This document shows, piece after piece, positions 4,572 through 61,844 of a stretch of DNA of 64,000 bases (its first letter is position 1; each line of letters opens with the position of its first letter). The notes under the pieces are model-generated. The model worked only from the letters and a program-made list of their open reading frames with translations. It was not told the origin of the DNA and ran no database searches. The DNA is taken from positions 58,809,919 to 58,873,918 of the forward strand of contig OZ038385.1 in assembly GCA_964036045.1 (NCBI GenBank), in the 5' to 3' direction. This stretch comes from Eutreptiella sp. 'Long Island Sound 2002'. Lineage: Eukaryota > Euglenozoa > Euglenophyceae > Eutreptiales > Eutreptiaceae. The position numbers and the translations under genes were made by a program.

Positions 4572-4680
4572 TATGTTATATCCGTGGCATAGGCCCGAGG
4601 ATATCCGCAGATATACGTGGTATATGACCCGGGATATCGCAGCGGTGATATCACGGGTCATATCCTTTGGCTACAGGTAC
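4572..4680. repeat. Motif family F: ATATCCGTGGTATATGCCACGGATAT cluster
   Basis: Degenerate copies of a palindrome built from GATATCCG and CGTGGTATATGACC halves occupy about 100 bp. They are bounded by a GT (after GGAAACTAT) and a TACAG, so the block has the form of a short intron. The flank TGTGGCTGTCTGGAAACTATG is shared with the related block at 28.4-28.65 kb, where the same motif recurs. I infer two remnants of one mobile family. Confidence 0.5.
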
Positions 4681-4756
4681 GCATTTCATAAAGTCCGGTC
4701 TTCCGGTCTGCCCGGTGTTCCCGTTTCGCGCAGTTTATTCTAGCAAAACTTCTACT

Positions 4757-5095
4757 TTACGCCGGTTTACGCACCCTCTCCTTGGGGGTCTTTGCCTTGG
4801 CACCCTTCTGAATCACCCAACTCCCCACAACCGTCTCGGCCTCAAACACCACATCCCCTTTGTTCTGTTGCCTCTTGACGTTTCCATTTTTGTCTTCCGT
4901 GTATTCTTTGGTGTTTGTGAGGGCCACCTTCCCTTTTTCCACCTTGGACACCAACCCACTGAAACGGGCTCCGTGTGAGCCTTTCTTCAAGAAAACTACC
5001 CATTGCCCTTTCTCAATGTTCTTGAAGGCCTGGGGGACCACCTTATCATCCTTGGCGGCATGGGAGAGGGCTTGACCGGGACCTTCCACAGGCAT
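4757..5095 (-). CDS. Small basic protein of unknown function (possible terminal exon)
   Basis: A 112-residue frame starts MPVEGPGQALSHAAKDDK and ends KTPKERVRKPA at TAA. Alternating hydrophobic and charged segments (GQWVVFLKKG, FSGLVSKVEKG, KGDVVFEAETVVGSWVIQ) suggest a small beta-barrel, SH3/KOW-like fold, but I do not recognise a family. The reading frame stays open upstream to a TTTAG acceptor near 5116. The DNA beyond that is full of GACCGGTC palindromes (family G), so this could be the last exon of a gene in a motif-G element rather than a host gene. Confidence 0.5.
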   Translation of the reverse strand: MPVEGPGQALSHAAKDDKVVPQAFKNIEKGQWVVFLKKGSHGARFSGLVSKVEKGKVALTNTKEYTEDKNGNVKRQQNKGDVVFEAETVVGSWVIQKGAKAKTPKERVRKPA

Positions 5096-5162
5096 GGCAA
5101 GGAAGAAACTAAAGCAACAAGGTGGAAAAACATGTTGAACATTAGAAAAAAGCACAAACTGC

Positions 5163-5485
5163 ACAAACTGCACGAACCGGTCGGACCGGGCCGTTCATTT
5201 CAGTTTAGATGAAGACCGGTCCAGACCGGTCTGGACCGGTCTGCGTACCAACTGCGTGAAATCTCCTAAACGGAATGTGCTACACGGCAAAGCCTATTAA
5301 ACTATCATGGTGGCCTAAAGTCCTTTGGGGAGCATGCATACACAAGCATGGCAAAGCAAGGAGAGTGCAAAACACCTGCACCACCATAAACTGCATTGTA
5401 ACGACCAAGTAGTTGGACCGCTCGGTTCATACTAGTTGATACGGAGACCGGTCTGGACCGGTGCAGACCGGTCTCTGGAAAAACT
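5163..5485. repeat. Motif family G: GACCGGTC palindromes
   Basis: Clusters at about 5175-5245 and 5438-5480 contain repeated CCAGACCGGTCTGGACCGGTC. The same motif returns at 13.90-13.96 kb and around 14.1 kb, on the other side of the retroelement and element H. The two parts may be one element split by those insertions. Confidence 0.55.
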
Positions 5486-5497
5486 GCATAAGGGGGG

Positions 5498-14331: not shown

Positions 14332-14404
14332 TCCTTTATCTACGGTTGCGTCATTCCGTGACCAGTCGGAATGCAAACCCTATTTTGGTTCTTTCAAAAT
14401 ACTA

Positions 14405-14572
14405 CTTTTCACGTGCAACCGCCTGTTCTTGGGCTTTAAAAATTGTGCAACCGCCTTATGCAACCGGTACCCTATTTTGCAACCGCTTCATGCAACCCCT
14501 TGTGCAACCCATGGGTATTTTTGTGCAACCACCTTATGCCACCTCCATGCAACCTGCAACCCCTAAGCGAAA
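14405..14572. repeat. Left arm of element A: GCAACCGCC motif array
   Basis: About nine copies of TGCAACC[GA]CC-type motif in 170 bp, some followed by TTATGCCACC. The same motif fills introns of this element's genes and its right arm. Confidence 0.7.
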
Positions 14573-14596
14573 ATCACTGAATCGGGCAATGTTCTC

Positions 14597-16033
14597 TTAG
14601 GCCAACCCATGGTGTGCCAAGAAACAATTCTTCACATGCAGATGTACACCACAACCCTTGCAGTCCCAGCAGGTTCGCTTCCCACACAGTTTGCAGGTGC
14701 CATGGGTAGGAGACTTCACTGGGCAATGGACCTCTTGAGGTGGGACATACATAGGGGGCATCACGGAATGCATGAATCCAAGCTGAAAATCCCACAAAGA
14801 TGTGTTTTCGGGGATCAAATCAATGCTTTTGCAAGCAACAAACGAATTAGAGATGGCGTATCTCACGACAAAAGCCCTGAGTGCCTTTGACCATGAGCGG
14901 AAACGACCTACTTCTCTATGCTGAAGCGCTAATTGATTAGCCGTATCGACGCCCCCGGCCAGTTGACGATACGCCCCTATTTCACACGGTATTTCGGCAC
15001 GCCCCGACCACCACCACCGATTCTGAAATGTACAGTTTGTCAGCAGTGGCACCACACGCGGTGGTTTTGACCCAACTTTTGGGTTTTTGTATACTGCCAT
15101 ACTATAGTGTCCATGCCTATGGGTGGCACTGAAACGTGACCGGGTCTTATCCCCTGTCCCATGGTTTGTACACCGAATTCATCGCGTTTCGTTAAAAACA
15201 GGAAAGGCGTGTCCTGCGAAGCACATGCTTTCGCGGTGGCATGGCTACCAAAGTATGAGTCCGCACAAAGTGCAACTCCGGGTGGAATTTTTGTGGTCCA
15301 GCGACCCACCACTTCGCTGGGTGTTAGTTGCTCTGTGACCCGGGGGTTAGCCCGCCTTACAACACCAGGCTTCGAGCAGTAGAGGAACATGTCAATCACG
15401 TAACTCCGGCAAGAGTCCGCTAAAACGTAAAGTTTTAGCCCGGTGGAGTGGGGCTTTCGCGGTACAAATTGGCGAAGCCGGCCACATCTTTTGCATTTAT
15501 GGGGGACGATTGTTTCGTCCCCCGCGTAGCAGGCGCCGGATCGCCAGGCGCGGTGCCACTGCCGATTGCACATGTGAAGCAGGTTGCAGATGTCTATGTT
15601 CAGCAAACTGCAAGGAAGACAAAAACTGTCAAAAAATTGTGCAACCGCCAGATGACACCGCTCTTTTTAGTCTGCAACCACTAACATACTTGTGCAAAGT
15701 GTAATACTCTGCTCGTGTGAGCAGTTTGGCCATGTATGCATTTGCACACAGGGCCCCATTTCGGTCCCAAATGTCGTCGACACGCCTAGGTCGAAGCATG
15801 CCTAACCCAAGGCGGAAACACAAATAATTGTCGAGCCGGGGTAGGAGGTCGGGTCGGCCAACACGTAGTAATTTCCGGCGTTGTAAAACTTGGATCGGCC
15901 GCACCATGTATCGTAGAACAGACCAACAGTCGCGTATGGGGACGTTCAGGTGTCCCGGGGCTGGATCGTCACGGATGTGGGCCTTTGCCTCGGACGGCCG
16001 CAGGCTACGGCGAACAATGCTCCGCCTCGGCAT
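14597..16033 (-). CDS. piggyBac-like transposase of element A (one intron, one frameshift)
   Basis: Exon 1 (15,690-16,033) begins MPRRSIVRRSLRPSEAKAH. An 82-bp intron (15,608-15,689) carries the GGTTGCA/GCGGTGTCA motif. Exon 2 starts at 15,607. Typical piggyBac blocks follow: AGDETIVPHK (first Asp), PRKPHSTGLKLYVLADS, CADSYFGS (second Asp), VYKNPKVGSKPPRVV and GGVDTANQLALQHRE (third Asp). A C-terminal cysteine-rich zinc domain completes it (CKLCGKRTCWDCKGCGVHLH). The usual GVDxxDQ block reads GVDTANQ, so the fourth conserved Asp is Asn. The frame slips by one base around 15,130, between RPG and VYKNPKV, so this copy is probably inactive. It would act in the nucleus as a cut-and-paste transposase. 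Confidence 0.8.
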
Positions 16034-16612
16034 TGTGATACACCTAAAAAACCATGAAAGGGGAAAATTGTGCAACCGCCTTATGACACCGCTTTTTTTC
16101 TTTTGCAACCGCCCCCTGCACTTATGCAACCGCCAAATGACACCGCTTTTTTTTATCTGCAACCCCCCCTTTTGTTCACTGTTCTGAAATTCGGAGGCAA
16201 TGGCAAAACACATTGAAACTGCAAACTGCAGCTGTGTGACTGTACATAAAAGACCGCAGTCAAAATCGAGTCAATGTCCTCGTAAAGGTGAATATACACC
16301 AAACCTCCATTGTCACCTGTCACCTGAAGTGAAATATATGGAAACGGTGATAACAGAAAGGCAGTGGTTAAACCACATCACCATTGTCAATGTTCTTCCC
16401 CGGGCAGAAACGCATCTGTGGTGGACGCTGGTTCCACTGCGCCTGCGCTCAGGGGGCGTCAAAAAACAGTGCGGGCTGGTGCGAAGCACACAACTGCACT
16501 CAAACCACAGACATTGACTGCAATAATCTTCAGCCTGGAAAGGCGACCCATTACCACTGCTGCGGCTCGCCACCGGTGAGGCAGCGGCTTGGATCTCACT
16601 GGCAGTGAACCG

Positions 16613-19600
16613 TCACATCGGTGTCTCGTCGTCCACCCCAGCCGGCACTGCTGGTTGGTCCCCTTCGGCCGGCGGCGTTCCTCCGGCTTGCTCCGGGTCT
16701 GCCGCTGGTGGCGTCCCGCCTGTACTGGCGTCCGCAGCGGCGCCACTTCCTCCAGTGCCCTCGGCGTTTGCCGCCTCGGCTTCCTCGGGCTCCACATCAG
16801 CCGTGTCCTGACAAAAACAATGAAAACAGCGTGCAACCGCCATGCAACCGGCAGATTCATGTGTGCAACCGCCCCATGACACAGGTTGAAAGCAACCGCT
16901 AATATATGCAACCGCCTCGTGACACCGCTTGAAATCAACCGCCAAAATATGCAACCGCCTCGTGACACCGCTTGAAAGCAACCGCCTAAATCGTGCAACC
17001 GCCTTGCAACCACCTTGCAACCACCTTGCAACCCCTTGCAACCCCTCTGCCACCTGCTGTCAAAAAGCATGTACCTGCGGTTCTGGGGCTGGGATGACGT
17101 CCTGCGACACTTGCGTTGGCTCCGGGGGCGGCGGGGCTTCCACTGCCGGCTCTGCCGGCTCCGCAGCCGGCTCCGCAGCCTCCTCGGCCTTCTTCTCCTC
17201 GGTCTCCTCCTTGACGTGGCGCTTGCGCTTGAGCTTCACCTTCTTCACGGGGGCGGGCGTCGGCTCGTAGTACTGCTGGGCTTCGGCCCATTGCTCCTTG
17301 CGCTGCTGCTCCTCCACCCATGCCCTGGACGCTAGCACGTACATGCCGCGCGTCTCGGGCAGCTGCAGGCTCCGGCCATGGACCAGCTCCATGGCCAGGA
17401 GCGAGCAGCGCTGCACTCCCTTCACGAGATACTGAATGATCTCCTCATCCGTCATGTCCGTTGGATCACCTCCGAACTTCGTACTTGCCACTGACGCGGC
17501 CCGGCGTGGGGGGTCAAAACCTTGCTTCTGCTGCATCTTCTGCAAATTCTCCACCGTCAGCCCTTGCGGCTTAACTCCAAGTGGTTTTGGTGCGTCCTCA
17601 GCCTCCAACGGTAGCGGCTCTGCGTTCTCGCATCCCAGGCACATCGCCACGTTGTTCGACAAGTGGTCCACTACGAAAAATAACAAAAATAAATCAGGGG
17701 TTGCAGATGAAAAAAAGCGGTGTCATCAAGCGGTTGCATAATCACATCCAGGGGTTGCAGATAAAAAAAAAGCGGTGTCATAAGGCGGTTGCACAGAAAC
17801 GCGTTACCACAGAGCGGAATTCACAAAAAACCACAAACGAAATGCACACCAGCCCATTCGACGTGGTCAAAGTCATCCTCCTCATCACTCTCCGAGTTTT
17901 CGTGAAAGTGGCCAGTCCGACTCTTGATGATGCGCGTGGCCTCCGGGACGGACTTGCAGTAGGGCCCACGAAACTTGAGGTGCCTGATCAGGGTCTCACC
18001 GGGCACATTCCCCACCACTCCCGCGGCGCAGCCCAACTCCAACCTGCGATCGGCCCATACAGATTGCTCCATGGCGTCAATGCACTGCTTGTAGTGATGT
18101 GCCAATCGCCCCAGACTGATGCCCGCCTTCTTCTTGAGCATTCGCCGCAAACTCGTCAAATGGGCATTGCCCTTCGGGGAGTCCTTGTACTTCTCCGCTC
18201 TTGTTGGTGCGGCTGAAATGCGGTGGGAACCCCCACGTGGGGCCTCGATCTTGAAACCCACACTTGCTGCCTCCTATGGTGAGCATAACCTGGCATACCA
18301 AGAATACCCCCCCAAAACAGCCATTTTGTCACACGCACCTAGTCGTTCCGTGTGCCCATGGGATATGAAAAAATGAGTTTAGCACCCTGAAAATAGGGGG
18401 GGGGGGGTCAAAAAACCATAAAGCCAATTCCATACACCCATACCTGTGTGTGGTAATCCACACATTTTGAGGTATTTGTCAGTATACTCGAAGTATTGGA
18501 GAAGTATTCTTGCCGTATACTCGGAAGTATACGGCCATATACTGTCCCCTGCACGAGTCTCGGCGGGCCAATCCTCATTAAAAATATTGAGCCCCGCATC
18601 TGACCTAAGTTCCCCATACTCATCCTGAAGCTTGTCCATCCAATTGACAGAAATGAAGCCGGATTGGAAAGCATGGCCCCATTGGGGCAATTCCTTGAGG
18701 TCGTCGACATGACGATGATCGACGACGTCAACGGGGATGGAGACACAATGGTGTTCAACACCAAAAAGGGGGGTGGTGGTGAGGGGGAAGAAAAGGGAGG
18801 GGTGCATCCAAGTACCCTTGTACCAGGTGGGGAGGGTGTGGCCCTCCAAATCGGCATGCCAGGACCATGGCGATTGGGAGTGGAGGGAGTAGAGGGGGGC
18901 GGTGTCCTCCCAATGCCCCCGCTGCACTTGCTGGGCCTTGCACTCCCATTTGCGCCAACCAGCAGCCACGTCCCCCGAGACATGAATCCCCGGAGAGCCA
19001 TCCTGCATCTCCCATTCCCTCAAATACAAACTCATCCCCCTATTGGGCCCCCCACAGCTTTTTTTAACATGCTCCACGACAGCGCGGGCATCCGAATCAT
19101 GGAGCTGCAACACAATAGCTTGCAGATTAGGGTTGTTGTCAAACAACGACAACAAAGGGTCAGTGAGGCTGTGGGGTTGGGCAACGCCGGGGTGCGTTAG
19201 CTTCACCAGGGCCACAGGGGTGTCCAAGGTGGACCAAGCACAATTCTCAAGAGAAGGCCAAGACACGGTGCGTGTGCTGTCGGGGCTGTAAACACCTCTG
19301 TGCACTGTGCGGAGAGCTACGGCATCGGCCCACTTCTTCAACAAGGCATGAGTGCCCGCATCAGTCATGGTGGCAGAAAAAGAGGGCCTGGGAGAGCAAG
19401 AAGCAACATAATATGAATTGGAATGGGCACATATGGAGACATACATTGCAATCTTGAGTGTAGTATGAGCCTAGATTGGTTTCAAGTGGTGTGCAATTGT
19501 TGGGCAAAGGCAAAGAATGCAACAAGATGGGCACAAAAGGCACAACAATGGAATTTTTCAACTTGAAACAACCACGTGGTGCAAACAAATACCCCCAGTA

Positions 19601-20950
19601 TACGGCCGTATACTCTAAGTATACGGCCGTATACTCCAGAGTATACGGCCGTATACTGAGGTATTGGAGCCTTGAGTATACGGCCGTATACCCCAAGAGC
19701 CCAAAATGGGGTATTTTCAAACACAACATTGATCATCATTGACAAAATTGACACAATTGGCAAACTAGAGGTATTCCCCAACCCACCTATGCATGCATTG
19801 TGCATTATACATTCGTACCCACCTGTACATGCCACATACCCCTTTCTCCCAAAACCCCCTTTTTTACCCGTATACTCCCAGGTATTCCTGGTATGCCAGG
19901 TTATGCTCACCATACCTTTCCGCCCCTCTCCTCGGTCTTCTCCTTCTTCGTTTTCTTTGCCGGTGGCTGCCGCGGCGTGTCACTGTCGTCCTCGCTTCCA
20001 TCGGAGTGTATACCACTGCAGCGTCCTTGGCCTTCCTTGGTTCGGGCGCCACATCCGCTGCATCTGAGTCACTGTCCACGGGGCAAGGCACACTTCTTGG
20101 GGGTGGATCACTCTTGGGCGATGGCTCCTTCCGGCGATCGGTTTGGGCCTGGGCCTGGGCAGCGGCGGCATGTGACTCAGCCTTCAACTTGACCTTGACC
20201 TTTGGCCGCTCCTTCTTGTAAAAAGCGCAAACGTTGATAATCTAATAAACAAAAAGGGAAATGTGGGAAATGTGCAACCGCTGGATGACACCGCCGGAAT
20301 GCAACCGCTTCGAGTGTGCAACCGCCTCGTGACACCGCTTGAAAGCAACCTGCAACCGCTAGCTTTTTTAGGCTGAAATGAAAACTGCATACGAAACAGT
20401 GCCAAGTGAACTAGAATGCAGCATACATCGGCAAAGGCATAGTCACAATTGTTGGGGAAGGCCTGGTTGGCCACTTTCCCATTCTTGATCTCGTAGTCCC
20501 GAGGCATGAACTCTTGGTCGTCGCAGAACTCCACTTGCTTCTTCTGTTTAACCCTAGTGCATGCACGAAACAATACTAAACACATGCTTGCCTCAGGCTC
20601 ACAGGGAACAAACTGACAAATGCCTAATGAAGAGGTAATTAAGTTAAACCAGTGTTTTGAGCAAGCTCAAAACACGAGTTTGTTGACTCGGTGGACCCAA
20701 CCAGCCACGTACAAACCCTTGGGCTGCGACAGCTGCACAAGAGAGACGAAGAGGAAAGACCTTGAATTTTCAGTGAATGTGAAAGTGACACTCAAACCAT
20801 GCGACAAAGCATGCGACAATAGGGGAGAACCTGTAAAACAAAAGGGGAGTCCTTTTTCAGTGTGTTCTTGGATACCACTGCCGTGTAGTGGTCCGGCATG
20901 CGGTATGCCTCCGGTACAGGCAGTCCCGGATCGTCATCGTCGGCGGACAT
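16613..20950 (-). CDS. Element A accessory gene, five exons, split by element E
   Basis: Exons: 20,831-20,950 (40 codons, start MSADDDDPGLPVPEAYRM), 20,427-20,543 (39 codons), 20,241 to 17,850 (interrupted by E at 18,275-19,914), 17,075-17,670 and 16,613-16,807, ending DDETPM at TGA. Phases agree at each GT-AG. Introns 2, 3 and 4 carry the element-A motif; intron 1 does not. Removing E plus one CC joins RGGK to EAASVGFKIEAPRGG in frame. A separate 1-base slip near 20,020 remains. The product is Lys/Glu-rich with a conserved core (ISAAPTRAEK, HHYKQCI) shared with element B's accessory protein (ISARPTRAEK, THYQLCL), which also ends DDETPM. Function unknown; co-occurrence suggests a transposition or targeting partner. 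Confidence 0.65.
18543..19368 (-). CDS. Element E: N-terminal exon of a D-type dioxygenase-family protein, truncated
   Basis: Starts MTDAGTHALLKKWADAVALR and encodes about 275 residues. NLQAIVLQLHDSDARAVVEHV matches the VAGFLIQLHPDDVDAVVESV region of the element-D protein. Later segments (GLNIFNEDWPAETRAGDS) match PIFNENPPIVGRPQDS there. A donor GTATATGG at 18,542 opens an intron whose first bases form the E palindrome. No downstream exon exists before the element end at 18,275. The catalytic dioxygenase domain is therefore missing and the protein cannot be an active oxygenase. Confidence 0.6.
19590..19695. repeat. Element E motif array: AGTATACGGCCGTATACT
   Basis: Four near-perfect 18-bp palindromes (AGTATACGGCCGTATACT and close variants) at about 22-45-bp spacing lie upstream of the E gene. 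More degenerate copies occur at the E-gene intron start (about 18,483-18,542). Confidence 0.8.
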
Positions 20951-21299
20951 GGGCGGAGGAGAAGAAAGCTAACATTGCAAAAGGGGGACAACAAGAGTGT
21001 GCAACCCTCATGTGCAACCGCCACAGAATTTGCAACCTGCAGGAACCGGAAATGATGGAATGCAACCGCTTTATGACACCGCTTTTTTTAGTCTGCAACC
21101 TGCAAATTTTGGTCTTTGGGGTCCCCATGGGTTGCAAGGGGGCGGAAAACACCTTCGGTAGGGGGTTGCAAAAATCAAAAAGTGGTTTTTTGATGGAATT
21201 AGACAAAACGGACGGTTCCTCGAGGTGGTTGAGGTCCAAAAACCTAGGATTCCCAACTTTTCAAAAGTTTTTATTTTTTGGCGAAGGGGTTGCACATAT
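20951..21299. repeat. Right arm of element A (motif array) up to the element B insertion
   Basis: Contains GCAACCGCC, GCAACCGCTTTATGACACCGC and related copies at about 21,000-21,100. The DNA then runs on without a gene to CACATAT, where element B starts. The last 18 bp of A (GGGGCTGTAGATAAAGGA) lie beyond B at 27,827-27,844. Confidence 0.6.
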
Positions 21300-21399
21300 T
21301 CCCTTATCTAGGGTTAGTACTCAGGGATCCATGTGGTCTGGGTAACCCATTTCTGCCCCAGAAAACAGGTGAAGATATTTGACCTTTTTTATTTTTCGA

Positions 21400-21665
21400 A
21401 CGGGGTAACATGCTTGTTACCTGGGTACCACATGTTACCGACGGTGTTACCAATGTGTTACCCGAGGGACTTCCTATGTTACCGGTAACATGTATGTGTT
21501 ACCCGAGCGCTCTGGTTGTTAATTGTTTTTGTTACCACCGCTGTAACCCTTGGGGTGTTACCCGGGTAACCATGCCCCCTTCCAATCCCACTTTGTCCCT
21601 ATTAGTTACCCCCTTTCATGTAACCCCTTCATCACACTTTGTTTTAGTTACCCCATGGTGGCTGG
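21400..21665. repeat. Left arm of element B: GTTACC motif array
   Basis: Roughly a dozen GTTACC[CG]/GGTAAC sites, including GTTACCCGGGTAAC and GTTACCGGTAAC palindromes. Similar arrays occupy 23,508-23,705 (5' of the transposase gene) and 27,205-27,820 (right arm). Confidence 0.75.
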
Positions 21666-21750
21666 GCACAACGTCATGCACACATAGTCCCTTCCCTCCC
21701 TGCCCTGCTAGAAGTATCACTGCGCCGTAGGACTGCTGTTTCTTCTGAGT

Positions 21751-23132
21751 TCAAACTTTCAGTTCTGAATGCCACTTCTGGAAACAACCACTGTAAGAGT
21801 GCAAATGCACATCGCAATGAGCACACTTGAACCAAGTGCGCCCCTTGCATACTTTGCAAGTGCCTCGGGTATCTACAAGCACCGGCGTGTGCACAGCGTG
21901 CCCAGGGGAGACAAACTTTTCCAAAATATCCCATTGGAAGTCCCAAAGGGATTTCTTTTTGGGTATCAAACCTTGGAGTCGGCAGACCGTAAAGGTATTT
22001 ACAATCGCGTACCTAAACAAGAAAGCCTTCAAGGCACGGGTCCAACTCTTGAATCTGCCTGTCTCACGGTGTTCTAGTGCCATTTGATTGGCACTGTCAA
22101 CACCGTTGGCTAGCTGCCTGTATGCAGCCACAACAGGTGGGAGCTCATAACCACCTCTGTGGCGCACCCACTCATTGTCGAACAGAAGTTTGACAGAAAT
22201 GGAACCACACGTGGTGGTTTGCTACCCACTTTTGGGTTTTTGTAGACATGGAGGGTATACTTGCCTCCTTTGACATACGTTTCTGCTGCAATGGAGGGTC
22301 GCATACTATCCCCAGCCAGGGAAACCCCTTCCTGATCCCTTTTGCATAGGAACAAGAAGGGTTGCTGACGCTGTGCCATTTGGTTTGCCACTAGGTGGCT
22401 TCCAAAGTATGAGTCGCACACAATTGCAGTGCGAGTAGGGAGTAGGTCAGCCCATCGGTGTACCATCTCCCGGGCAGTCCGAGGTCCAGCCACCTGGGGG
22501 TGATCCCGGAAGACCCTGACCCTTTTGCCTGCATACAAAAAAATATCAGTTATAAAAGGGTGCACTGAGTCACCCAGGACATACAATTTAATGCCTGTGC
22601 TATGCGGTTTTCTGGGGATGAACTGCCGCATGGGTCGAGCCCTTTTCCCCTTGTGGGGGACAATGGATTCATCCCCTGCGGCAGCCCACCCCCATACCCA
22701 CAGGCTGGACCAATGGGCATTAACAGCCTCAAGGAGCTCTGCAGTACCACAATTGGACAGGCGGTGTATTTTATAATACTCCTCCCTGGTTAATAGGGAG
22801 GCCAAGCCTTTGTGTGCACACAAAGCTGTGGGATGCCATACATCATCGACTCGTCTTGGTCGCCACATCCCCAGCATAACCCTGAATAGGATGTAGTTGG
22901 TGAGCTTGGGTATCAATTCGCTGGCTCCATTTTTTTCCAAAGCCTCACTCAAGCAGTGCAGGATTGGGTGGAACATGTCATCCATGGCCTCGGTAATGGT
23001 GGCATACTTCTTTTTAGGATGTCCCCCAAGGGTAGCTGCTGATAGGGCCTCTCTCACATGCTTGGGGGGTAGTCCCCTTCGTTCGAACACCATTGCTCTC
23101 CGCAATGGACGCCGGCTGGGTCGGATGGGCAT
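21751..23132 (-). CDS. piggyBac-like transposase of element B (single frameshift)
   Basis: Start MPIRPSRRPLRRAMVFERRG. Blocks: PRRVDDVWHPTALCAHKG; AAAGDESIVPHKGK (Asp ~156, GAT at 22,664-22,666); PRKPHSTGIKLYVLGDS; VCDSYFGS (Asp ~240, GAC at 22,413-22,415); VYKNPKVGSKPPRVVPFLSN. A one-base slip at about 22,170-22,195 leads into the second part with LFDNEWVRHRGGYELPPVV, then NGVDSANQMALEHRE (Asp codon 22,096-22,098; Asn codon 22,087-22,089 where piggyBac has Asp). It ends in a zinc-binding tail (CKVCKGRTWFKCAHCDVHLH). Unlike the A copy it has no intron. The protein is clearly homologous to the A transposase but diverged throughout. Confidence 0.8.
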
Positions 23133-23760
23133 GGTGGCTGTTAAAAGTGAAAATGGGTGGACGGGAAAACACCCCCCCCCCTTGCACACGTGCACATCGT
23201 TCACAAATTACCCCTGAACCCTGAGGCAAAGCTAGAAGGAAAGAATGAGGACGTCGGGGTAACACCCCTGGTAGCTGGGTAACTGGCAACTGGGATACAA
23301 GGGTGGTAAAATTCACCACTGACATTCCAACCATTGTACAAACATAGAGGCCACAACAGGCCTGATCAAAATAAAAAGACCCCATCCGACGTCGCCGATG
23401 CATCAGTCCGTGAAGTCCATGCCTTCCTCGCAATCACGTCCACGATCCAGAGTCTCCACCACTCACTTTTGGGCCTGAGAACAACAGAGGATCATTGCTG
23501 GACGATGTTACCACGCATGTAACCGTTGGGGTGTTACCCGGGTAACGTGTTGCCATACCCCCAGAGGTGAATACCTGTGTGTTACCGCCCATGTAACCCC
23601 TGGGGTGTTACCCGGGTAACGTGTTGCCATCCCCCCGGAGGTGAATACCTGTGTGTTACCGCCCATGTAACCCCTGGGGTGTTACCCCGGTAACGTGTCA
23701 CCACACTGCCCCATTCACAAAACCAAGGGTACAAATAAAGAAACACACCCTTGCACATCA

Positions 23761-35567: not shown

Positions 35568-35600
<33 letters not shown>

Positions 35601-42018: not shown

Positions 42019-42391
42019 CAGCGCGCGCTATACCTGGTATAGCGCGCGCCATAAGGCTGCTAGCGCGCGCTGTAAATATGTTGCGCGCGCTACACTGTTT
42101 TCGTCCGTGAGGACCTGTACTGTTGCACACTTTTCAGACCTTTCAGACAGTGTTTTTGCATGTGTCTTGGGTTGAATGAGCAACAGGGAATGTTTTTGAA
42201 AAGCAAGGGGTTTTTGGGAAACGCAGGACACTGGAAAAAGCATGGTTTTGAAACATTTTCCGGCTTTGAAAAATTTGAAAAACAAGACAATATAGCGCGG
42301 TAGAGCGCGCGCAATAGGCGCGCTATAAAGGTCGTATTTTTGAAAATTTGCGCGCACTATGGAAAAAATGCAACATTGCGCGCACGCAGGG
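42019..42391. repeat. Right arm of element C: GCGCGCGCTA array
   Basis: At least seven TAGCGCGCGC-type sites at 42,020-42,095 and 42,293-42,388. Between them lies a stretch with no gene. Confidence 0.75.
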
Positions 42392-42795
42392 GCTGTCCAT
42401 ACTCACCACAACCATGGGATGCAGCGTTCTAGGGCGTGGTGCGGAACCCCTAGTTAGAACGCAATTTCTGGAACACCCACCTACCCTCAATTTTGGGGCA
42501 AACCACCTAAAAAAATGGATTCAGCACCCTCAAAAACCCCCCATCCCCTTTCTTTCCCCACATAACCCGCATCATGGGGGTGGTTTTTGGGGGGGGGGTC
42601 AAAGAGTTAGAGCACAGTTAGAACAGAGTTAGAACGCAGTTAGAGCACCTTGCTCTAACTAGTTATCGCGCTAGTTATCGCGCGATAACTCAGTTATCGC
42701 GCAGTTATCGCGGGTAGTTATCGCGCACCCCTCCTCCCTCCCTCCCTAGGACAAACAACACAAAACACTTGGCACAAAGCATCTGTGGTCGTTTT

Positions 42796-44454: not shown

Positions 44455-44517
44455 GAAGAATAAGAGGACCTGGGCGCGAAATGAGGGAGGGTTTTGAAGC
44501 AAGGGCCCAAAAAACAC

Positions 44518-44955
44518 ACGCGATAACCCACGCGATAACCCCCGCGATAACTAGGTTATCGCGCGATAACCCCCGCGATAACCCCCCGCGATAACTAGTT
44601 AGAGCGCGATAACCCCCCGCGATAACTAGTTAGAGCACCCAGTTAGAGCGCGATAACCCCCGCGATAACTAGTTAGAGCAGGGGTTAGTGCGCACTAACT
44701 GGTGGTGTTAGAGCAAGCGTTGGGCACCCTAAAACCTTCACAAACGTTGATTTTGCACCCAGGAAACCTTGGAGATGTCAACAATGTGCAGGCACGGGGT
44801 ACATGGCGCCACAATCACAAATTCAAATCAGTCACACAGTCTTTTGGATGATTTGGATAGGGTGCCTCTCAAATCAGTCAAATGGACATGTTCCGGGCTA
44901 GACAGTAATAGAAATAGTGAACAATAATCGAATCAGCTGGAGGGGTTAGAGGACC
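44518..44955. repeat. D2 spacer with motif array and rearranged patch
   Basis: 44,518-44,700 matches the D1 motif array. At 44,835-44,878 D2 has a 44-bp insertion relative to D1 whose core equals the reverse complement of 48,229-48,261 in the dioxygenase gene. Four short deletions follow within 200 bp. Confidence 0.7.
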
Positions 44956-45522
44956 CTAAAACCCATGGACAGCAGCTGCCCCCGCACTATAAAAAATCAC
45001 GCTCCATCGCTCGCCCTCCCATGGCAATGGAGCGTGTAGTGCCCTGGTGTTGAACAACACCGGGGCTTGGGGGGTGGCGGTGCATGCCCAACCCTCCACC
45101 GCCCTACCCTTGCACACACGGGTGTGCCGCTTTTTTTCCCTCAAGGAGGGATTCAGCAGGCCACCACTCTCCACCCAAAACTCACCCCCCGTGAAAGACC
45201 CCACACACACAATAAGCGCCATGGGCGCCCCATCCCGCAAATGGGAGTGGAGGCCCATGGTGTCCGTCCCTTGGGGGCGAACAATTTGGATGCTACACCA
45301 TGTGAACCATGGTGGAGCATTGGAGGTGCAATACCCATTGAGGTCTGCTACCAAGGGGGTGAGGGCAGGCCTGAGGGTAGCAGCGGCCATGTGGGTCGCC
45401 CTAAAATTAGAGGGGTTGGGGTTTCCACTTCCCACGAGGCCAAAGTGGCACATGTCCACTTGGGCCCCATATCGCTCCTCCCCACGAAAAATGCCCTTGG
45501 GCAACCCCCTGAGCAAATCCAC
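44956..45522 (-). CDS. TET/JBP-like dioxygenase (D2 copy, shortened C-terminus)
   Basis: As the D1 copy through VIFYSAG, then a deletion replaces the last residues with AAAVHGF. All dioxygenase core residues noted for D1 are unchanged, so the shorter tail may not matter. The two copies differ by a few substitutions only. Confidence 0.55.
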   Translation of the reverse strand: MDLLRGLPKGIFRGEERYGAQVDMCHFGLVGSGNPNPSNFRATHMAAATLRPALTPLVADLNGYCTSNAPPWFTWCSIQIVRPQGTDTMGLHSHLRDGAPMALIVCVGSFTGGEFWVESGGLLNPSLREKKRHTRVCKGRAVEGWACTATPQAPVLFNTRALHAPLPWEGERWSVIFYSAGAAAVHGF

Positions 45523-45525
45523 TAG

Positions 45526-48500
45526 TCATTGGCTCCCACTCCTACTCCCGCTACCCTGACTCTGCAACCCTTGCGGCGCCAGCCCCTGCTGGGCCTGCTG
45601 CGCCCCGAAGGAGGCACAGAGGGTGGAGGTGAGGCTGCGCACCTGCGCCTCAGCCACCCCCAAGCGCTGCCCAAGGTCATCCCCCCTCCTCCGCTGCCCC
45701 TCCACCTCCACCCTAAGCTGGGCCACCTCCACCTCCGCCTTCCGCCTCCCCTCCTGGGCCTCCCTCAGGGCCTCCCTCATCGCCTCCACCTCCTCCCCCC
45801 TCTTGGCGGCCAGGTTGAGGGCCTGGTCCAGGGCACGCTGGGTGTTGCCCTGGGCCTTTTCGGCCTTTGCCAAGGCCGACCTGTGGTCGGCCGACCGACC
45901 CTTGGCCAGTGCGGCCTCGACCCCCGTGGCGGCCGCCTGCTCCACCAAAACCTGGCAAGCGTCCGTCACGTGGGTGGCCACACTGGCCCCCAAGGCCTCC
46001 ACGTCCAGGGCCTCATGGGGGGGCTGGGCTGCCGCCACCTTTGCCACCTTCGATGGCTTGGGGGAGGGCTTGGGGGCGGGGGTTTGGCCCTTACCCCTAA
46101 GGGGGGGGGGGGCATCCGGCTCAACCACCACCACGTCTGGTCCCCGCTTCGTCTGGCCTTTTCCCGGCCTTCCCCCCTTGGGTGCATACTGCCGAACCCA
46201 ATCGGCAGTGGCGTCCACCACAGAAGGGGGGGGGTCATACCCACCAACCTGGTGGATGTCCCCCCCCCTGTGCAGCTTCTGCCACACTTCCCTCCCCGTA
46301 TACTCCCCCTCCCACAAAAAACACACCCTCAAAAGGAAATAAGATTTCCTTTGGGGGGGGTCGCTCATCCCAAACAAACACAAAAAAGCCGCAACCGTTT
46401 CCCCCTCTGCGGCTTGCGGCCACTTGGCCGTTTCCCCCCCAACCCACACATAGGAGGGGAGGGTGAGGTTGGTCTTCCTCTCCACCCCCCCCTCCTTCTC
46501 TGTGATGGTGACCTGCCGGTACCATCCCGTCCCCCCCATCCTGCAGGCCTCATCCCCAGGCTCCCCAAACCGCCACGACGCCCCCTCCGGCAGCCTCTTC
46601 TCCCCCTCCAGCTCCAACCGGGCCGCCACCGGCTTGGCGGGCCGTGCCCCCGCTGCTGCTGCCGCTCCGCCCGCTGCGTCGGCTGCCTGGGCGTCGTCCT
46701 TGACGAAGATGCGGGGCAGCTGCAAGATGGTGGCCTGAAAAAAACAAAAGAAACAAAAAAAAAACACGCGATAACCCGCGCGATAACCCCCGCGATAACT
46801 AGGTTATCGCGCGATAACCCCCGCGATAACCCCCCGCGATAACCCCGCGATAACTAGTTAGAACGCGATAACCTAGCGCGATAACTAGTTAGAGCACCTA
46901 GTTAGAACGCGATAACCTAGCGCGATAACTAGTTAGAGCAGGGGTTAGAGCAGGGTGTTGTGGGAGGTTTTCACACCTGGTGACATGGACACATGCCTTG
47001 GCCCTCCTTCTTGGCGTCGTCCAGCACCAGGCCCAGCCTCCGCAGCCACACGAAGTCCGTGACGGCCGCATACTCCCCCACCTGCCGCCACTCCACCACC
47101 TGGGCCACCCCCTCCGCCTCAGGGGCCACCCTTGCCACTCCCCCATACAACCCCCTCCTCACCACCAAAATGGTGCCCGCCGGCACCTTCATCCCAACAT
47201 GCCCTTGCAGGGTGGGCCAGGGCAGTGCCTCCCCATGGCACACCTTGGCCAAGGGGCACTGATCGGGGTGGCCTGCGACCGCCCCCGCCTCCTCATTAGT
47301 GAGGGGGGCAATCACCTCCCTCCCAACCCCCCACCCCGACAACAAAAAATGCCCTGTGGTTGTTCCCACCGGGAGCAAGCACTGAGCAGATTGCTCAATG
47401 CTGACCCCATTGGGGTCCACCACCACCTCCTCCTCCTCCCCCCCCTCCACCTCCTCCCCCTCCTGGCATGGCACACAAAGGCCATCTTTGTGGGCGGTGC
47501 ACAAAATCAGCCGATTGCATCCGTAGCAATTGGCTACCACCTTCCCCCTACACCTAACCGCCCCATCACACTGGACTGTCCTGGCCACCCGGCCACCAGG
47601 TGCCCCCAGCTGGGGCCTCTTAATGGACTGGGTCACGTGCAGGTTGGGGAATCGAAGATTCCCCCCCACGGTAAGCTCAATGGCAAAAAATGCCATGAGG
47701 CGGGGGTGGGACACCCCCGTGGGGGAGGCCTTGGGAATCCCCGACCCCCTGTGGACATCAAGGGCATTAAAAAAAAAGGCAGTGCCCCTCTTGAATGGCA
47801 CAGCCCTCTCCACCCAAGGGTCAGGGAACCCCGAACTGCTGGAGGGCACAAAAAGAAAATGTGACCCATCCTCCTCCTCATGATTATGGGTTAGCATAAT
47901 AAGGCAATTGACAATCAATGTGCCTTCAGGAATGGTGTAGGGGGGGGCGTCGCGATGGAGGTGCTGGGGGGTGTGGTCATAGCTCGAAATTTCGGCCATG
48001 TCAAGGATGGTGCAGCTCCATCCAACCCCCCCCACCACAGTCTTCTTCGCCGTCTCAAGCACACGATCTGCCACCCTTTTGAGGACTGGCAGATCATGGA
48101 GCTTGTGGGGGTTGTGCCTGTGGTGGTTGGCACCCCCATAGTTGCCGTACAATGTACGGCGGGTCCCAGAATCTTGGGGCCTGCCGACAATGGGGGGGTT
48201 CTCATTGAAAATGGGTGCCTTCTCTGAGAGAGGCACCCTATCCAAATCATCCAAAAGACTTTGGAGCTGCACAGCACTCAAAAAATCGTGCTCCAGGAGG
48301 TGGTTGACCACCAGCTTCCCCCCCACCGTGAGCACAAGGTCATTGGGGTCCCTATTAAAGGCCCCCAAGGGCTCGGCGGCAACCACCTCCTCCGCCTCCC
48401 CAATAAGGGGGGGTGTTGCCCCAAATGGAAAAAGAATCACCCCCTGCCCCGAAACAATGTTGGGAGTGGTGACCCCATACCACTCACGCTCCCACTCCCT

Positions 48501-49100
48501 TGTGGGGCAAAGGGAGTGCATGGGGAGCTTGTTTTCGGGGTCGTCAGTGCAGACCCGGCGGGTGTTGTGGGTGAGGGGTTGGGGGAACCAACCATCCGAC
48601 TGCCCCTTCCCCTTACCCGGTCGGATCCTTACCTTCTGGACACTAATCATGAGGGGGTTGTGGGGCTTCTCCTTCCTCCCCCCAGCCCCCACCCCCCCCG
48701 CATCCTCCTCCTCCTCCTCCACTTCCTCCACTTCCTCCTCCTCCTGACCCACATAGAGGGTCGTCTTCGTCCCCGCACCCTTCTCGGCATGGGCGGTGAC
48801 GGACTCCACCACCGCGTCCACATCGTCCGGATGAAGCTGGATCAAAAATCCAGCAACCCCTGGATTTACCTCTAGCAACTCGAAGATGTAGTTGCTGAGA
48901 ACCAGGGGGTCTCGGTCGTCCGCCATGAAGGGGGACTTATGGACAAGGAGTCCAAAGTCCACACCATGTTCAAAGCGGGTCGCCACAGGGCGCCTCACAT
49001 TGGCATCACCCATCGTAAACCCCTCAGGACCGCCAAGGCGACGGACCCCAAGGAGCTTTTGATGGTGCTCGCACCAAGCGTGGGCAGCAGCAAGGGCCAT
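45526..49100 (-). CDS. Large PhyH-like 2OG/Fe(II) dioxygenase with zinc cluster and coiled coil
   Basis: Exon 1 (46,977-49,100, 708 codons, start MALAAAHAWCEHHQKLLGVR) is joined over a 242-bp intron (46,735-46,976, donor CAG|GTGTGA, acceptor TTTCAG) to exon 2 (45,526-46,734, 402 residues). The intron is made of GCGATAAC/TAGTTAGAGC repeats. Domains: an N-region shared with element E (QLHPDDVDAVVESV), an acidic run, then a dioxygenase core ~375-475 with HLHRD (HxD), EGTLIVNCLIML, FFFNALDVHRGSG (distal His) and HPRLMAFFAIEL (Arg). A cysteine-rich stretch follows at ~510-550 (CDGAVRC, CYGCNRLILC, CVPC). Exon 2 has a long coiled coil. All iron and co-substrate ligands are present, so an active oxygenase is plausible. 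Substrate unknown; nucleic acid is an inference from context. Confidence 0.65.
46740..46970. repeat. Motif-D array filling the intron of the dioxygenase gene
   Basis: Consecutive CCCGCGATAACC, GGTTATCGCGCGATAACC and ACTAGTTAGAGC units, the same sequence as in the element's arms at 42,650-42,730, 44,520-44,700 and 49,160-49,310. Confidence 0.85.
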
Positions 49101-49486
49101 TATCAAAGAATACGAAGGCTTTGAGAGCTAAAGCGAAAAGGGGAAACATAAAATGAAGCGCGATAACCCACGCGATAACCCACGCGATAACTAGTTATCG
49201 CGCGATAACCCCCGCGATAACCCCCGCGATAACTAGGTTATCGCGCGATAACCCACGCGATAACTAGTGCTCTAACCCCGTTCTAACCCCGCGATAACTA
49301 GTTAGAGCACACAAAGATCAAATCGCAAAAAGTGCAAAACGGGCAATATCGAGCAAACAATACATGGAAGGCACATTGTTGCATCATAGTGCACCCTTGT
49401 AACATGTGAAATTCCGGGTTCCAACCATATTAACAACACCCAAAATTGGGGGGGTTCCGCACCACGCCCTAGAACGCTGCATCCCA
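49101..49486. repeat. Right arm of element D2
   Basis: Motif-D array at 49,157-49,310, then a unique 150 bp and the terminal inverted repeat. Its last ~230 bp equal the end of D1. Confidence 0.85.
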
Positions 49487-57459: not shown

Positions 57460-58589
57460 TGGGTCTGAGAAGGGCGCTGGAGGAGGACTTGTTTTGGTGG
57501 TGCCTGCTCCTCTTTGTCCAAGGAGCTCTTTCGCTTTGATCCATGGTGCAAAATTAACATTGTTATGCATGCAAATGTTGGTCCATTGAGCTCGTTTGGT
57601 GGTGCTCACCAATGTCGCCTCGTATTTGAACGCAAACACCCACACATAGCGGAATACATCAACAAACATTTACAGGAACTCACGTTGAGTTTCAATGGGT
57701 ACGAGTTAATGGTGCTTTGCTGCATTGAGTGTGTATGTGTTGGTGGGTGCCATCAATGATGATAATTGTCATGGCTTTCACCGTGCCCAGATATCTTTGA
57801 TGCTCCTTATCAAGGGCGCCTGTCAAGAACGCGAGCGCGCAACATGATCGGCAAACTCACGTCGCATCACCATTTGTCCGAGAACGAGTGTCTCTTCATC
57901 TTATCCCGTTTATTGGGAATTCACGACCCTGGAGCCACTGTTGAGACATATTTGGATGTGTTGGACTCGCTCGGATGTCTATCCCAAGTGGTGTGGAAAT
58001 TCGTGCCCCTCTCTATCATTTGATCCAAGCAAGCCACCGGCAAGCGACATGGGAGGAGATGGGCCTCGCATCCTTAGAGCTACGAAAGCAATTTTTTGGC
58101 TGCATTCTTTTAGGATGAGGACCCGGACAGCATTTTCGGCATGAAATCGGTGGAGGAACCGTCGGACAACGACGACGACGACGACGACGACGAAGTCGAG
58201 GCGTTCCCGTTGTCGCCACGCGGCGTGGCCCTCCCCCTTTTGCAAGTTTGTCCCTAGGCCGCCACTACTACACCTCTTCCGTTTCTTACACTCGTCCCGG
58301 GTCGAGTAGTGAGGGGAATTCTTGGTGGGGGTTTCTTCAAATCGCTTCTTGCGGTTCAAGATGCATGTGACAGTGGACTGACTATCAATGCAGGAGTGAC
58401 ACGGTTGCGAGAAAGTGCAAGTTGTGCGGGAGGGACACAGTGGAGTCGGATTGCTGTCCGCATGTCCTACAGCCCACATTCGCTGTACCACTCTGCGTGC
58501 CCTGTGTCAGTGACACGACACGCTTGTGACCAATACTGAAGATAGTCCGCATCACTGTTGTGCCACATTTGGCCCCGTGTTCCATTGCT
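57460..58589 (+). other. Possible exon remnants, unidentified
   Basis: Two weak candidates on the plus strand: a frame at about 57,766-58,023 (GRLSRTRARNMIGKLTSHHH) and an acidic frame at 58,141-58,256 (MKSVEEPSDNDDDDDDDD, EVEAFPLSPRGVA) built on a GAC repeat (about 58,170-58,194). Neither has a recognised domain. Composition of the second resembles the accessory proteins of A-C. Confidence 0.25.
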
Positions 58590-59170
58590 GCCCTTGTAGG
58601 CTAATTGTCGCTCTGCGTGGCTGCCGGTGCCCTGTTCCACCTTCCCTGTCTGCAGTAGCAAGCCATTTCTATTTGCTTCATGTGACTACTGATGTTCTGC
58701 GTATCCTGTACCACAGTTGCCCGTGCCCTTGACCACTGCCACTAGCACCTGCCACACTCTACTACTGCTGCCAATGCAGGCCTGGTATGACTGCTGCCGC
58801 TGCATGGTCAGCAGTACTGCTGTCCCTGCCTGCACCACTGCACTGCATGGCATGTGTCACTGCCACCGCATGCCCTGCTCAGCTGATGTATGACCTGTAC
58901 CACTACGACCAGTTCATATTCTGCACCACTGCTGCCACTGCATGCCTTGTACCACTGCGGCCCCGGCTTGCACTGTGTCGCGGCAGGCACTGCGTATTTG
59001 CTCCCATATCATGCTTCCCCGCCACTGCTGCCACCACATGCCCTGTACCCAGTGCTGCATTACAACGCAAATTGTGTAAGGAGGAGGTAACCCCCCCCCC
59101 TCCCAGGTTCAACCCCCCCCCCTTTGCCCCTAGTTGAGTTGAGCTCGTGTTGCATTTTGCATTTCTGCAG
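58590..59170. repeat. Motif family K: CACTGCTGCCACTGCATGCCCTGTACC array, intron-like
   Basis: About ten degenerate copies of a ~30-bp unit (ACTGC[TC]GCCACTGCATGCC[CT]TG, TACCACTGC). The block ends with CATTTCTGCAG at 59,160-59,170, a good acceptor. The motif returns at 59,375-59,455. It matches the pattern of motif-filled introns seen in elements A-D. Confidence 0.55.
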
Positions 59171-61467
59171 TCATCCGGCAGTGACCAAATGTTTCAGGAT
59201 GTGACGTTTCTGTATAGTTTTGTGTTCCCTCTTGCGTACCACACTATCCACATGCCCCCTGTCCAAGAAATACAGCAAGCGCCCAGAAACCTCCAGGAAG
59301 TAATGAGAAGCATCCAGAGTCCCCCAAGAATCAAATCTCTCGTATTTTCCCAATGCAACCCTGCCTATACCACCGCCGCCATGCATGCGTGCCCTGCCAA
59401 TGCTGTCACTGCATGCCCAGCACCGTTGCTGCCACCTCATGGCACGATTCCTGCATATTGTCATTTCTACATTGCTACAGATGAATGTCGTGCCAATTTT
59501 TCCAAAAAGCGCAATATCAGTGTAAGAGGAATCCAACAGATAAATCCCGGTTAGGGTACACGGGGTCATGCTTTGCCCAATAGTGACAATCGGAGTGGTT
59601 CCATGGAATTGTATCAACTGTGTGGGTCCTACTGCACATTACACAACCCGGCCATGATGGCAGCCGCGGGGCCAATGGGTGCCACCAACCCCCCAACCTA
59701 CTCCTCCCACTGCAACTTTTTTAAAATTGGTGTCGCCACTGAGCCAATTTTTAGAGTGGGCCACCAAATAAACACTCCACATGCTACTTGGCTCATCGTT
59801 GTCAGTGTCACGAGGCAATCTATTTGAGTCATATATGGCGGGGTAGGGCCGCCTGTGTGTGCCCCCCAGCCCGCACCACCACCACCAGTAGCAGAGTTCT
59901 CCACATCTCATGGTTGTGTGTGCAAAGAAACCAAGCAAAATGGAGTACATTCATTAATAGGTTGTGGAGCAGCTCATTGGGGACTAGACAACGGGCTCGG
60001 GGGAGGGGGGGGGGGGGGCTCGGGGGTTGGGGGCTTGGCGTTCTGGACCTCCAATTCACAATCCGCGGTGTTCCTTGGCTTGGGGCTGGGGGGGGTTTCC
60101 GGGGGCTCCAATCCACGATCCATGGTACAATCTATGGGGCGATCCACTGCCATGGACAACGTAGAGTGAGGAGACAGGTTGTCAATTGGATTGTGATTGC
60201 AACATACATTATACATTGTACAAACATTTGAAAAACAATCTTTTTTCCTTTTGTGCTTGCATGCCACTCCCCAACACCGGATGCAATTTGCACAATTTTT
60301 CTCCAAGAAGCGATTGTGGATTGTTTTGTGCTTTAAGCTTGCATGCCACACCACAACACAGGAAGCATTTTGAACAACTTTTTTTTTTCAAGAAGCACCC
60401 TAACTAACAGCTTATGTGCTCAAAACTACGATGCATAGTGCATGCATGCACAGTGGGACCCCCTTTCCCCCCATGCCACTCACAGGGTTTTGTGAGGTTA
60501 GCCCAAATTTCTCAGTTTGTGGTGTTGTGTTTGCTTGATGTGCCTTCCGTGCCTTCGTCTTTTGCGTTTGGGGGGTTTTGTTGGGTTTTGAAATTTTCGG
60601 TCCGCACACCTAGGCAAGGTGGGGCTGGGGGGCGTTTTTTCAGACCTCCAATCCACGTTCCGCGCCAATCCTGGGGGGGGGGGGGGGGTTCCGGGACCTC
60701 CGATCTACCGCGGATCGGATTGCCTAGTCTCCATTGGATATGGGCATTGAGTTGAGCCTGAATTCAATTTTGTCCATGTGGTTTTGGGCCAGCTGTTTTC
60801 ATGCTATATTCTCACGTTTAGTTTCAGGGCAACTACGGCTGTCGGCAGTGGGCGGAAAGTGTTACTAGCTAGGAGATTCAAAGCCGATCCTAAGGATGCA
60901 ATAGTTGGATTGTCGAGATGTGACCCATCTAGAGGGCAAACGCACGATGCCATTACACATGTGATGAAGTATCACAGGGTAGGCTTTGCACCTAAATTTT
61001 TGGTGCAGTAATTGGCTGTGAACCACTTTGTGACCCCACATCGCTTCCTGTATTGATCTCATCCATTCAGGGTTTGCCCGGAGAAGCGCTCGAAAGTTTT
61101 CGTTTTTTCTTTTGACCCACCAACTCATCTCATCCCCACCATTTATCCTCCCTTGGTATGAATTGACCGGAAGCGAATAGCAGCGTCTTTCCCCACTGAT
61201 AAATCGGCCATCGAAAGGTAGGGAATGTGCACAACAAGCGACATTGCTCGCCTAGAAGTGGAGTTTCTTGGTATTTGTGTCCCCACTCCCCTCCTTCTTG
61301 GGGGTACAAACCTGACATCCGAAGGTCTCGGCCTCCACCCGGGATTGGCAGTTTCACCGTTGCAGAAAAATGACCACAAACCCCCAACAAATCTTTATAT
61401 TTCCGAACACACCAATTTTCAACCAACACTGTTTTGGGGATTCCTCTTGTGACACCCCAACCTGCCC
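59171..61467. other. Repeat-rich stretch without supported genes
   Basis: Contains two ~75-bp imperfect tandem units (GCTTGCATGCCAC...CAAGAAGC, 60,255-60,400) and related CCTCCAATCCACGNTCC blocks (60,045-60,130; 60,640-60,715), one with a 16-G run. A possible exon (RKVLLARRFKADPKDAIVGL, 60,857-61,009) shows no known domain. Confidence 0.35.
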
Positions 61468-61844
61468 AGGGTTTCACCGTCAACACTGAAACCCTGGGGT
61501 CAAGACTGTGTTGTACTACACTCTGGGCTGTATGCAACCCCTTACGCCTGTCTACATACCCCCCTTGGGATGGTGGTGGTGGTTCATTTTGGGTGGGATG
61601 GATTATATGAGCACCTGGGTGTGCTTACTAGTGCAGGGTAGTTTCATTGTCAACGGTGAAACTCTGCCTTACTCCGGAGGATATGACATAGTATCAACGA
61701 CTGGAGCACATAGCTGCAGGAACTCGATGACCGGAAATAGTCTCACTGTTAACAGTGAAACTAGTTGTGATGCCGTGGCGCATGTGTGTGTACTGAGAAA
61801 ACGGTAACAGGCATCAAGCGCTTTCAGTGTTGACAGTGAAACTG
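61468..61844. repeat. Motif family L: four AGTTTCACTGTTAACAGTGAAACT palindromes
   Basis: Copies at 61,468-61,495, 61,640-61,663, 61,738-61,763 and 61,821-61,844. Each is an imperfect palindrome of 22-28 bp centred on GTYAAC or GTTGAC, with different unique DNA between them. Confidence 0.75.

Follow-up and report, generated by a model that had tools for sequence, protein, structure and literature searches.

Private sequence words in the arms, spacers and introns of unrelated transposons of Eutreptiella: a possible address system for self-directed anti-silencing

Why would a transposon carry one short sequence word in its terminal arms, between its genes and inside its introns, and a relative nested within it a different one? 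The question is raised by a window of 64,000 nucleotides on contig OZ038385.1 of Eutreptiella sp. 'Long Island Sound 2002' (genome assembly of 2.28 Gb in 2205 contigs), which was studied by sequence analysis only and in whose numbering all positions are given. The left half of the window is a nest of elements: H encloses G, which a retroelement divides in two, and A, into which both E and B are inserted. In the middle F is interrupted by a deleted copy of D, next to which lies a full-length D (Table 1). The limits of H, G and F were set by eye from the positions of words and repeats. A preliminary description proposed that each family owns a private motif, shared by its arms and its introns, as a code for self-recognition. 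This is still the best reading of the private words, and that interpretation is supported in part; we give about an even chance to a more specific form of it, in which the words would be addresses, evolved convergently, by which each family directs anti-silencing to itself.

The privacy of the words is observed directly. Exact copies of GCAACCGCC occur 15 times, in A only, and are absent from the B and E elements nested in A; GTTACCCGGGTAAC is found three times, in B only, GTTATCGCGCGATAAC seven times, in the two D copies only, and AGTATACGGCCGTATACT three times, in E only. Of the half-sites of the words, summed over the seven families (A, B and D to H), 300 fall in non-coding DNA of the family that owns the word, 13 in that of other families and four in coding DNA of the owner. 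The half-sites in own non-coding DNA amount to 55/142 for A, 91/113 for B, 90/108 for D, 12/22 for E, 33/38 for F, 13/31 for G and 6/8 for H; these counts are partly circular because the words were picked after inspection, and the A half-sites are also common as background, at 1.5 per kb. Sites in A, B and D were counted within limits a few bases wider than those tabulated (A 14331-27849; B 21297-27826). To lessen the circularity, the five most enriched 6-mers were taken from the arms alone and counted in the introns of A, B, D and F. In that order, the A words gave 31, 3, 0 and 2 occurrences, the B words 1, 35, 0 and 0, the D words 0, 1, 16 and 1 and the F words 0, 0, 2 and 22. Words derived from the arms predict which introns hold them, and in these four families the proposed private motif common to arms and introns is borne out. 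In 200 kb around the window no stretch of 500 bp has more than 2-3 sites for the words of B, D, E, F, G and H, and these words form no array; they are therefore not a general feature of the nearby DNA. The A half-sites are denser there in one minisatellite-like stretch, with up to 8 per 500 bp. A tblastn search (E 1e-4) of the 200 kb flanking DNA with eight element proteins or exons gave no match.

Own words are present in 13 of the 18 introns called by hand, namely in 4/6 of A, 4/6 of B, 1/2 of D and 4/4 of F. The intron evidence belongs to these four families. Two stray sites were seen, one of B type in A gene2 intron 4 and one of A type in F gene2 intron 1. The first intron of gene2, the second gene of A and B, lies at the same place in both elements (after VLQ) and holds four words in B and none in A. 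Taken with A gene2 intron 3, for which B has no counterpart, this difference indicates that arrays and introns come and go, as sections of PMC5735166 describe likewise for VANC genes. F had been listed with G, H, K and L as a remnant, but with its own word in every called intron it is not just that; G and H show flanks only. The E word, which had been placed at an intron donor, does occur in E alone, but the donor placement is conjecture and the copy of E is short.

Homologous genes are accompanied by different words. The transposases of A and B share 39-57% identity in blocks and their gene2 products are homologous in the N terminus (0/1000 shuffles) and the middle (0/500 shuffles). The G open reading frame (ORF) at 4760-5095 is homologous to B gene2 (0/1000 shuffles; against A gene2 104/1000, not significant), and the E ORF to the N-terminal part of the dioxygenase-like protein of D (BLASTP E 5e-7). 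Thus the earlier observation that A and B combine homologous genes (transposase and gene2) with different motifs holds, and it extends to B/G (gene2) and D/E. By eye the units of A and B look alike, with TGnnACCG twice about 12 bp apart, and shuffles gave 0.10, 0.35, 0.43 and 0.94. Relatedness of the words judged by shuffles was not significant for A/B or for D/E; the sole low value, 0.005 for D/B, is one of ten comparisons.

The words are set in tandem arrays whose periods follow the DNA helix. Loci reported by Tandem Repeats Finder, with the best row kept per locus, were scored by the cosine of the period at 10.5 bp. With periods of 9-93 bp, the 30 loci that lie in non-coding DNA of A, B, D, E, F and G reach a mean cosine of 0.81, a value that is the same without the deleted D copy (26 loci) and becomes 0.77 over 22 distinct family-periods; when the test period was left free between 8 and 14 bp, the maximum fell at 10.5. 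Controls gave 0.19 (20 other non-coding loci) and 0.09 (12 coding loci). For the 12 distinct family-periods of at least 18 bp (21, 21, 22, 30, 42, 43, 43, 44, 63, 73, 74 and 93) the mean is 0.83 (P 5e-6), against 0.17 for eight other non-coding and -0.19 for six coding loci with periods of at least 18 bp. The 33-bp repeat of H sits among the 'other' loci and some of the family loci are not word arrays. These figures supersede an earlier hand-picked set of 16 arrays, which gave 0.88. Since the periods of the arrays fit whole helix turns, binding of a protein on the DNA is favoured, and the phasing points to this rather than to an RNA mark.

Orientation differs between families. In B, GTAACC is on the plus strand at 19 of 19 sites in both arms, the spacer and the introns, and GTTACC at 61 of 74. 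In A this is so for 37 of 45 GCAACC sites, intron 4 being reversed; three A introns carry the word antisense to the transcript and the remaining one carries it sense. The arms of D are mutually inverted (CGATAAC left +1/-5, right +9/-2), with spacer and intron mostly plus. The words of E, F and G are palindromic.

How might such words act? We envisage that each family has, beside many copies of its word in arms, intergenic spacer and introns, its own gene for a protein that would bind the word. Bound along the element, the protein would keep open the chromatin of its own family alone, as does VANC in the VANDAL elements of Arabidopsis (PMC5735166 and PMC10398659, each consulted in part). Both the binding and the anti-silencing outcome we infer. 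For D, and for relatives of E that are intact, the likely effector would be the 2-oxoglutarate (2OG) dioxygenase-like protein, and for A, B and G the gene2 protein. Introns may hold arrays as non-coding room within the gene body, in which sites could expand without harm to the protein, and word and protein would diverge together. We would go further with rather less assurance, somewhat short of even: unrelated superfamilies in one genome (the piggyBac-related A and B with the gene2 relative G, the CMC-type D with E, and the unclassified F) may each have reached a private, helically phased word, spread over arms, spacer and introns. A chromatin protein encoded by the element, the gene2 product in A, B and G and a dioxygenase-like one in D and E, would read this word, and each family would thereby un-silence itself alone.

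Transposases of two types were identified. Matches to DDE_Tnp_1_7 (PF13843; cutoff 22.4 bits) score 46.9 bits for B, 41.7 for the A exon at 15040-15666 and 18.2 for the A exon at 14597-15178, so that B and one exon of A lie above the Pfam cutoff, as in the piggyBac superfamily. Duplication of a TTAA target is a trait of that superfamily. This is not the situation here, where A, with terminal inverted repeats (TIRs) TCCTTTATCTAC, and B are each flanked by ATAT (one insertion each), and we therefore term them piggyBac-related only; a second gene with word-filled introns also sets them apart. EnSpm elements have CACTA termini, which were not found in D. Its TIRs start with TGGGATGC and its target-site duplication (TSD) is 2 bp, for which reason we class D as CMC-type and not EnSpm. 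Its transposase has the D-D-C2C-H4H-E arrangement, with D196, D281, C296/C299, H491/H496 and E516 invariant in three sequences, and agrees with the signature D, D, C(2)C, H(3-4)H, E by which CMC (EnSpm/Mirage/Chapaev/Transib) transposons are defined, according to the portion of PMC12730594 consulted. No transposase was seen in E, F, G or H; in F neither TIRs nor a transposase were identified, and its large ORFs have no telling Pfam match. Pfam scans of 20 further ORFs gave no additional transposase. Searches of solved structures gave nothing significant, the best hit for the B transposase being the transposase 6x67 (E 0.53).

Several points weigh against an anti-silencing address system or limit the evidence for it. 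The 18 introns were called from reading frames and GT-AG ends, with splice sites deduced, and three calls are soft: B gene2 intron 5 and D gene2 intron 2 have no in-phase pair by eye, and for A gene2 intron 2 a donor 2 nt away fits. Five introns lack their own word (A gene2 introns 1 and 2, B gene2 introns 4 and 6, D gene2 intron 2), and B gene2 intron 6 has a foreign array of six GGATGCA copies found nowhere else in B; the family rule of the preliminary description, borne out by the other introns, is thus not absolute. The gene2 protein has no recognised domain, and none of the 7993 proteins scored against the spliced B gene2 protein was a homologue at E 1e-3. For the D protein the dioxygenase matches are weak, all below the Pfam cutoff (PhyH 13.6-17.0, cutoff 22; 2OG-FeII_Oxy_3 14.3-21.8, cutoff 27), with no Pfam match to Tet_JBP and no dioxygenase match in P0027; an HRD...H...R pattern is visible by eye. 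Two AlphaFold2 models of it had a predicted local distance difference test (pLDDT) score of 34 and 36 and were unusable. The copy of E covers only the region before the dioxygenase core. Within the units of B, single words do not keep to a helical spacing (-0.17 for GTTACC). The two D copies differ at 4/449 array positions, 20/470 other non-coding positions (Fisher P 0.0014; gap-rich 39861-40117 left out, 47/673 with the wider set) and 24/2604 coding positions, but this lower divergence of arrays comes from one pair of copies and gene conversion would have the same effect. Finally, the observed/expected CpG ratio is 0.45 in D coding DNA and 0.50 in B coding DNA, against 0.69 outside the families, low as it would be for methylated DNA, but CpG transitions between the D copies are not enriched (3/24 coding, 3/47 other non-coding, 0/4 array) and there is thus no sign of recent methylation.

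Other explanations of the arrays have to be set against these difficulties. The words might be excision sites for the transposase or a TnpA-like protein, the arms serving synapsis and the intron copies being extra or decoy sites spread by duplication. The textbook case is En/Spm (CACTA), in which the element protein TnpA binds repeated short words, the subterminal repeats, and is also linked with methylation; in our elements, too, words lie near the ends, and the arms of D are inverted to each other. We nevertheless consider this unlikely, because in A and B both arms have mostly the same orientation (GTAACC in B, four left and three right, all plus) and because words lie, unlike in En/Spm, in introns and spacer as well, where in A and B they are more numerous than in the arms, to about 3 kb from the ends of B, which would be superfluous for end recognition. 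The arms bear equally on the suggestion that the words keep relatives from cross-mobilising each other. Such a guard predicts transposase end sites, as the inverted arms of D would allow, but the same-orientation arms of A and B speak against it. Arrays upstream of the transposase start codons of A, B and D, and within introns, could also act like enhancers in the transcription of the genes that the element carries, with the factor bound there coming from the element or from the host, and helical phasing would suit cooperative factors. To us this is distinctly improbable, given that a private word per family, and different words in homologous families, are not expected of host factors and that the arms downstream of the genes carry arrays as well.

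It is also conceivable, with a low probability in our estimate, that the cause is neutral or mechanical: tandem duplications within each family would have built up its non-coding DNA piece by piece, and introns would have been born from them or refilled by them. The array of an intron can be nearly identical to that of a spacer (the arrays at 46757 and 39612 match at 98% over 87 nt), A intron 3 lacks a B counterpart, and birth of introns from transposons is known from Introners (PMC9860276, seen in part). Against such a neutral origin, phasing of unit length at 10.5 bp is confined to these arrays, and it is the arrays that vary less than other non-coding DNA between the D copies. The idea that the words mark transcripts, as intronic hairpins or RNA motifs read by an element protein, had been raised before and draws on the palindromic form of several words, which could fold in RNA. 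We hold it to be very improbable: the arrays are also intergenic, their periods follow the DNA helix and the strand of the A word relative to the transcript is not constant.

An address system for anti-silencing has its closest parallel in VANDAL/VANC. According to the part of PMC5735166 consulted, VANC21 words form tandem repeats of the same orientation in introns, intergenic and terminal non-coding regions, and VANC6 has another word. The likeness lies in the position of the arrays, in terminal, intergenic and intron DNA with nearly none in coding DNA (A, B, D and F), and in the use of different words by related families (A/B, B/G and D/E). As to orientation the picture is mixed: it is mostly uniform in B and in A, the arms of D are inverted, and the words of E, F and G are palindromes. 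Unlike in VANDAL, no MuDR/Mutator-type transposase was found, the domains being PF13843 (A and B) and D-D-C2C-H4H-E (D). The words here are often palindromic with helically phased unit lengths, and the terms 'helical', 'period' and 'palindrom' do not appear in the text of PMC5735166 at hand. VANDAL/VANC rests on protein-DNA data, whereas our elements are known from their sequence. The second parallel is with the fungal TET/JBP transposons, some of which, on the partial text of PMC12730594, combine a C(2)C/H(3-4)H transposase with a 2OG-dioxygenase gene and are thought to escape methylation in this way. D resembles them as a DNA transposon with a C2C/H4H transposase and a dioxygenase-like gene, but its protein weakly resembles PhyH/2OG-FeII_Oxy_3 and not Tet_JBP; neither 'subterminal' nor 'VANC' occurs in that text. 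Among the matches listed from the open-access literature, no title or abstract opening dealt with such arrays in piggyBac-related or dioxygenase-bearing elements.

In the partly consulted sources, sequence-specific anti-silencing by transposons has so far been described for one plant group. If our reading is true, it would be a general and repeatedly evolved strategy, not the peculiarity of that group, and the same anatomy with other transposases suggests a general principle. Several natural pairs of protein and word could then reveal how the DNA-reading part shifts its specificity, and the 10.5-bp phasing predicts cooperative binding on one face of the DNA.

Table 1. Elements of the window and their word-bearing features
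Feature	Position	Strand	Remarks
Element H ends	4572..4689, 14106-14330, 27850-28620	.	word GATATCC; inverted arms 4591-4631 and 28444-28484
Element G	4690..5497	-	one flank of nested retroelement; other flank 13880-14105; word GACCGG(TC)
Element A	14332..27844	-	piggyBac-related transposase gene and gene2; nested E and B inside; word GCAACC / GACACC
A left arm word block	14395..14575	+	
A transposase intron	15608..15689	-	3 own sites; GTATGT...TTGCAG
A intergenic word block, gene2/transposase spacer	16034..16190	+	
A gene2 intron 5	16808..17074	-	14 own sites; 43-bp tandem array
A gene2 intron 4	17671..17849	-	6 own sites; orientation opposite to other A introns
Element E	18275..19914	-	nested in A gene2; 34-bp TIRs; 2-bp TSD (CC); word GTATACGG(CCGTATAC)
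E word array, 21-bp	19589-19657		
A gene2 intron 3	20242..20426	-	7 own sites; no counterpart intron in B by A/B alignment
A right arm word block	20985..21180	+	
Element B	21300..27822	-	piggyBac-related transposase 21769-23133; gene2 23761-27162; word GTTACC / GTAACC
B left arm word block	21380..21680	+	
B intergenic 74-bp array	23506..23727	+	
B gene2 intron 6	23881..24051	-	own word absent; six GGATGCA in two blocks (exception)
B gene2 intron 5	24330..24686	-	18 own sites; 63-bp array; in-phase splice pair not found by eye
B gene2 intron 3	25456..25830	-	18 own sites; 73-bp array
B gene2 intron 2	25989..26097	-	4 own sites
B gene2 intron 1	26928..27048	-	4 own sites
B right arm	27196..27810	+	93-bp array and further sites
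Element F	32720..42413	+	large ORF of unknown kind and Q/K-rich second gene; word GCGCGCTA and GCGCACTA; 21-bp arrays
F gene1 intron	33167..33279	+	4 own sites
F gene2 intron	35169..35311	+	6 own sites
F gene2 intron	36410..36534	+	4 own sites
F gene2 intron	37111..37225	+	3 own sites
Internally deleted D copy inside F	37517..41296	-	TSD TC
Full-length D	42415..49486	-	transposase 42799-44453; dioxygenase-like gene; 36-37 bp TIRs; TSD CA; word CGCGATAAC
D intergenic word array	44509..44683	+	
D dioxygenase-like gene intron	46735..46976	-	array 46757-46950; 17 own sites; GTGTGA...TTTCAG; in phase by eye
D right arm word array	49149..49310	+	

Relatives of the D proteins were found in sequence databases. 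The dioxygenase-like ORF has 33 homologues, all of source 'ena', and the transposase 40 relatives, two of them from 'lgn' (38% and 30% identity, on contigs of 2-3 kb) and the others from 'ena'; viral and prokaryote contigs that were searched held no relatives. The database clusters P0001, P0002 and P0034 for D genes comprise 220, 491 and 275 member proteins, all of source 'ena', and these sizes suggest a copy number of D in the hundreds. After the dioxygenase-like exons of D lies an ORF (44956-45525) in which another pattern like that of dioxygenases can be seen by eye (GGEF...ALHAP...GERWSVIFY); it has no Pfam match. A homology between A gene2 intron 4 and B gene2 intron 3, likely by eye, was dropped when the next exon did not rise above shuffles (136/500). 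The coding region of F contains a perfect 45-bp duplication (41861-41950).

The nested retroelement that splits G (5498-12692) has long repeats, in which 300-nt pieces 6103-6104 bp apart are 99-100% identical, and a 1308-residue ORF with a GIY-YIG match below threshold. It resembles a Penelope-like element of the kind with an N-terminal GIY-YIG (Chlamys). At 1351-2154 there is a piece of a host gene with a glutathione S-transferase C-terminal domain, close to coding sequence rich in lysine; the gene may be that of elongation factor 1 gamma. In unexplained DNA at 50686-51065 a 197-bp unit occurs twice in tandem with 96% matches.

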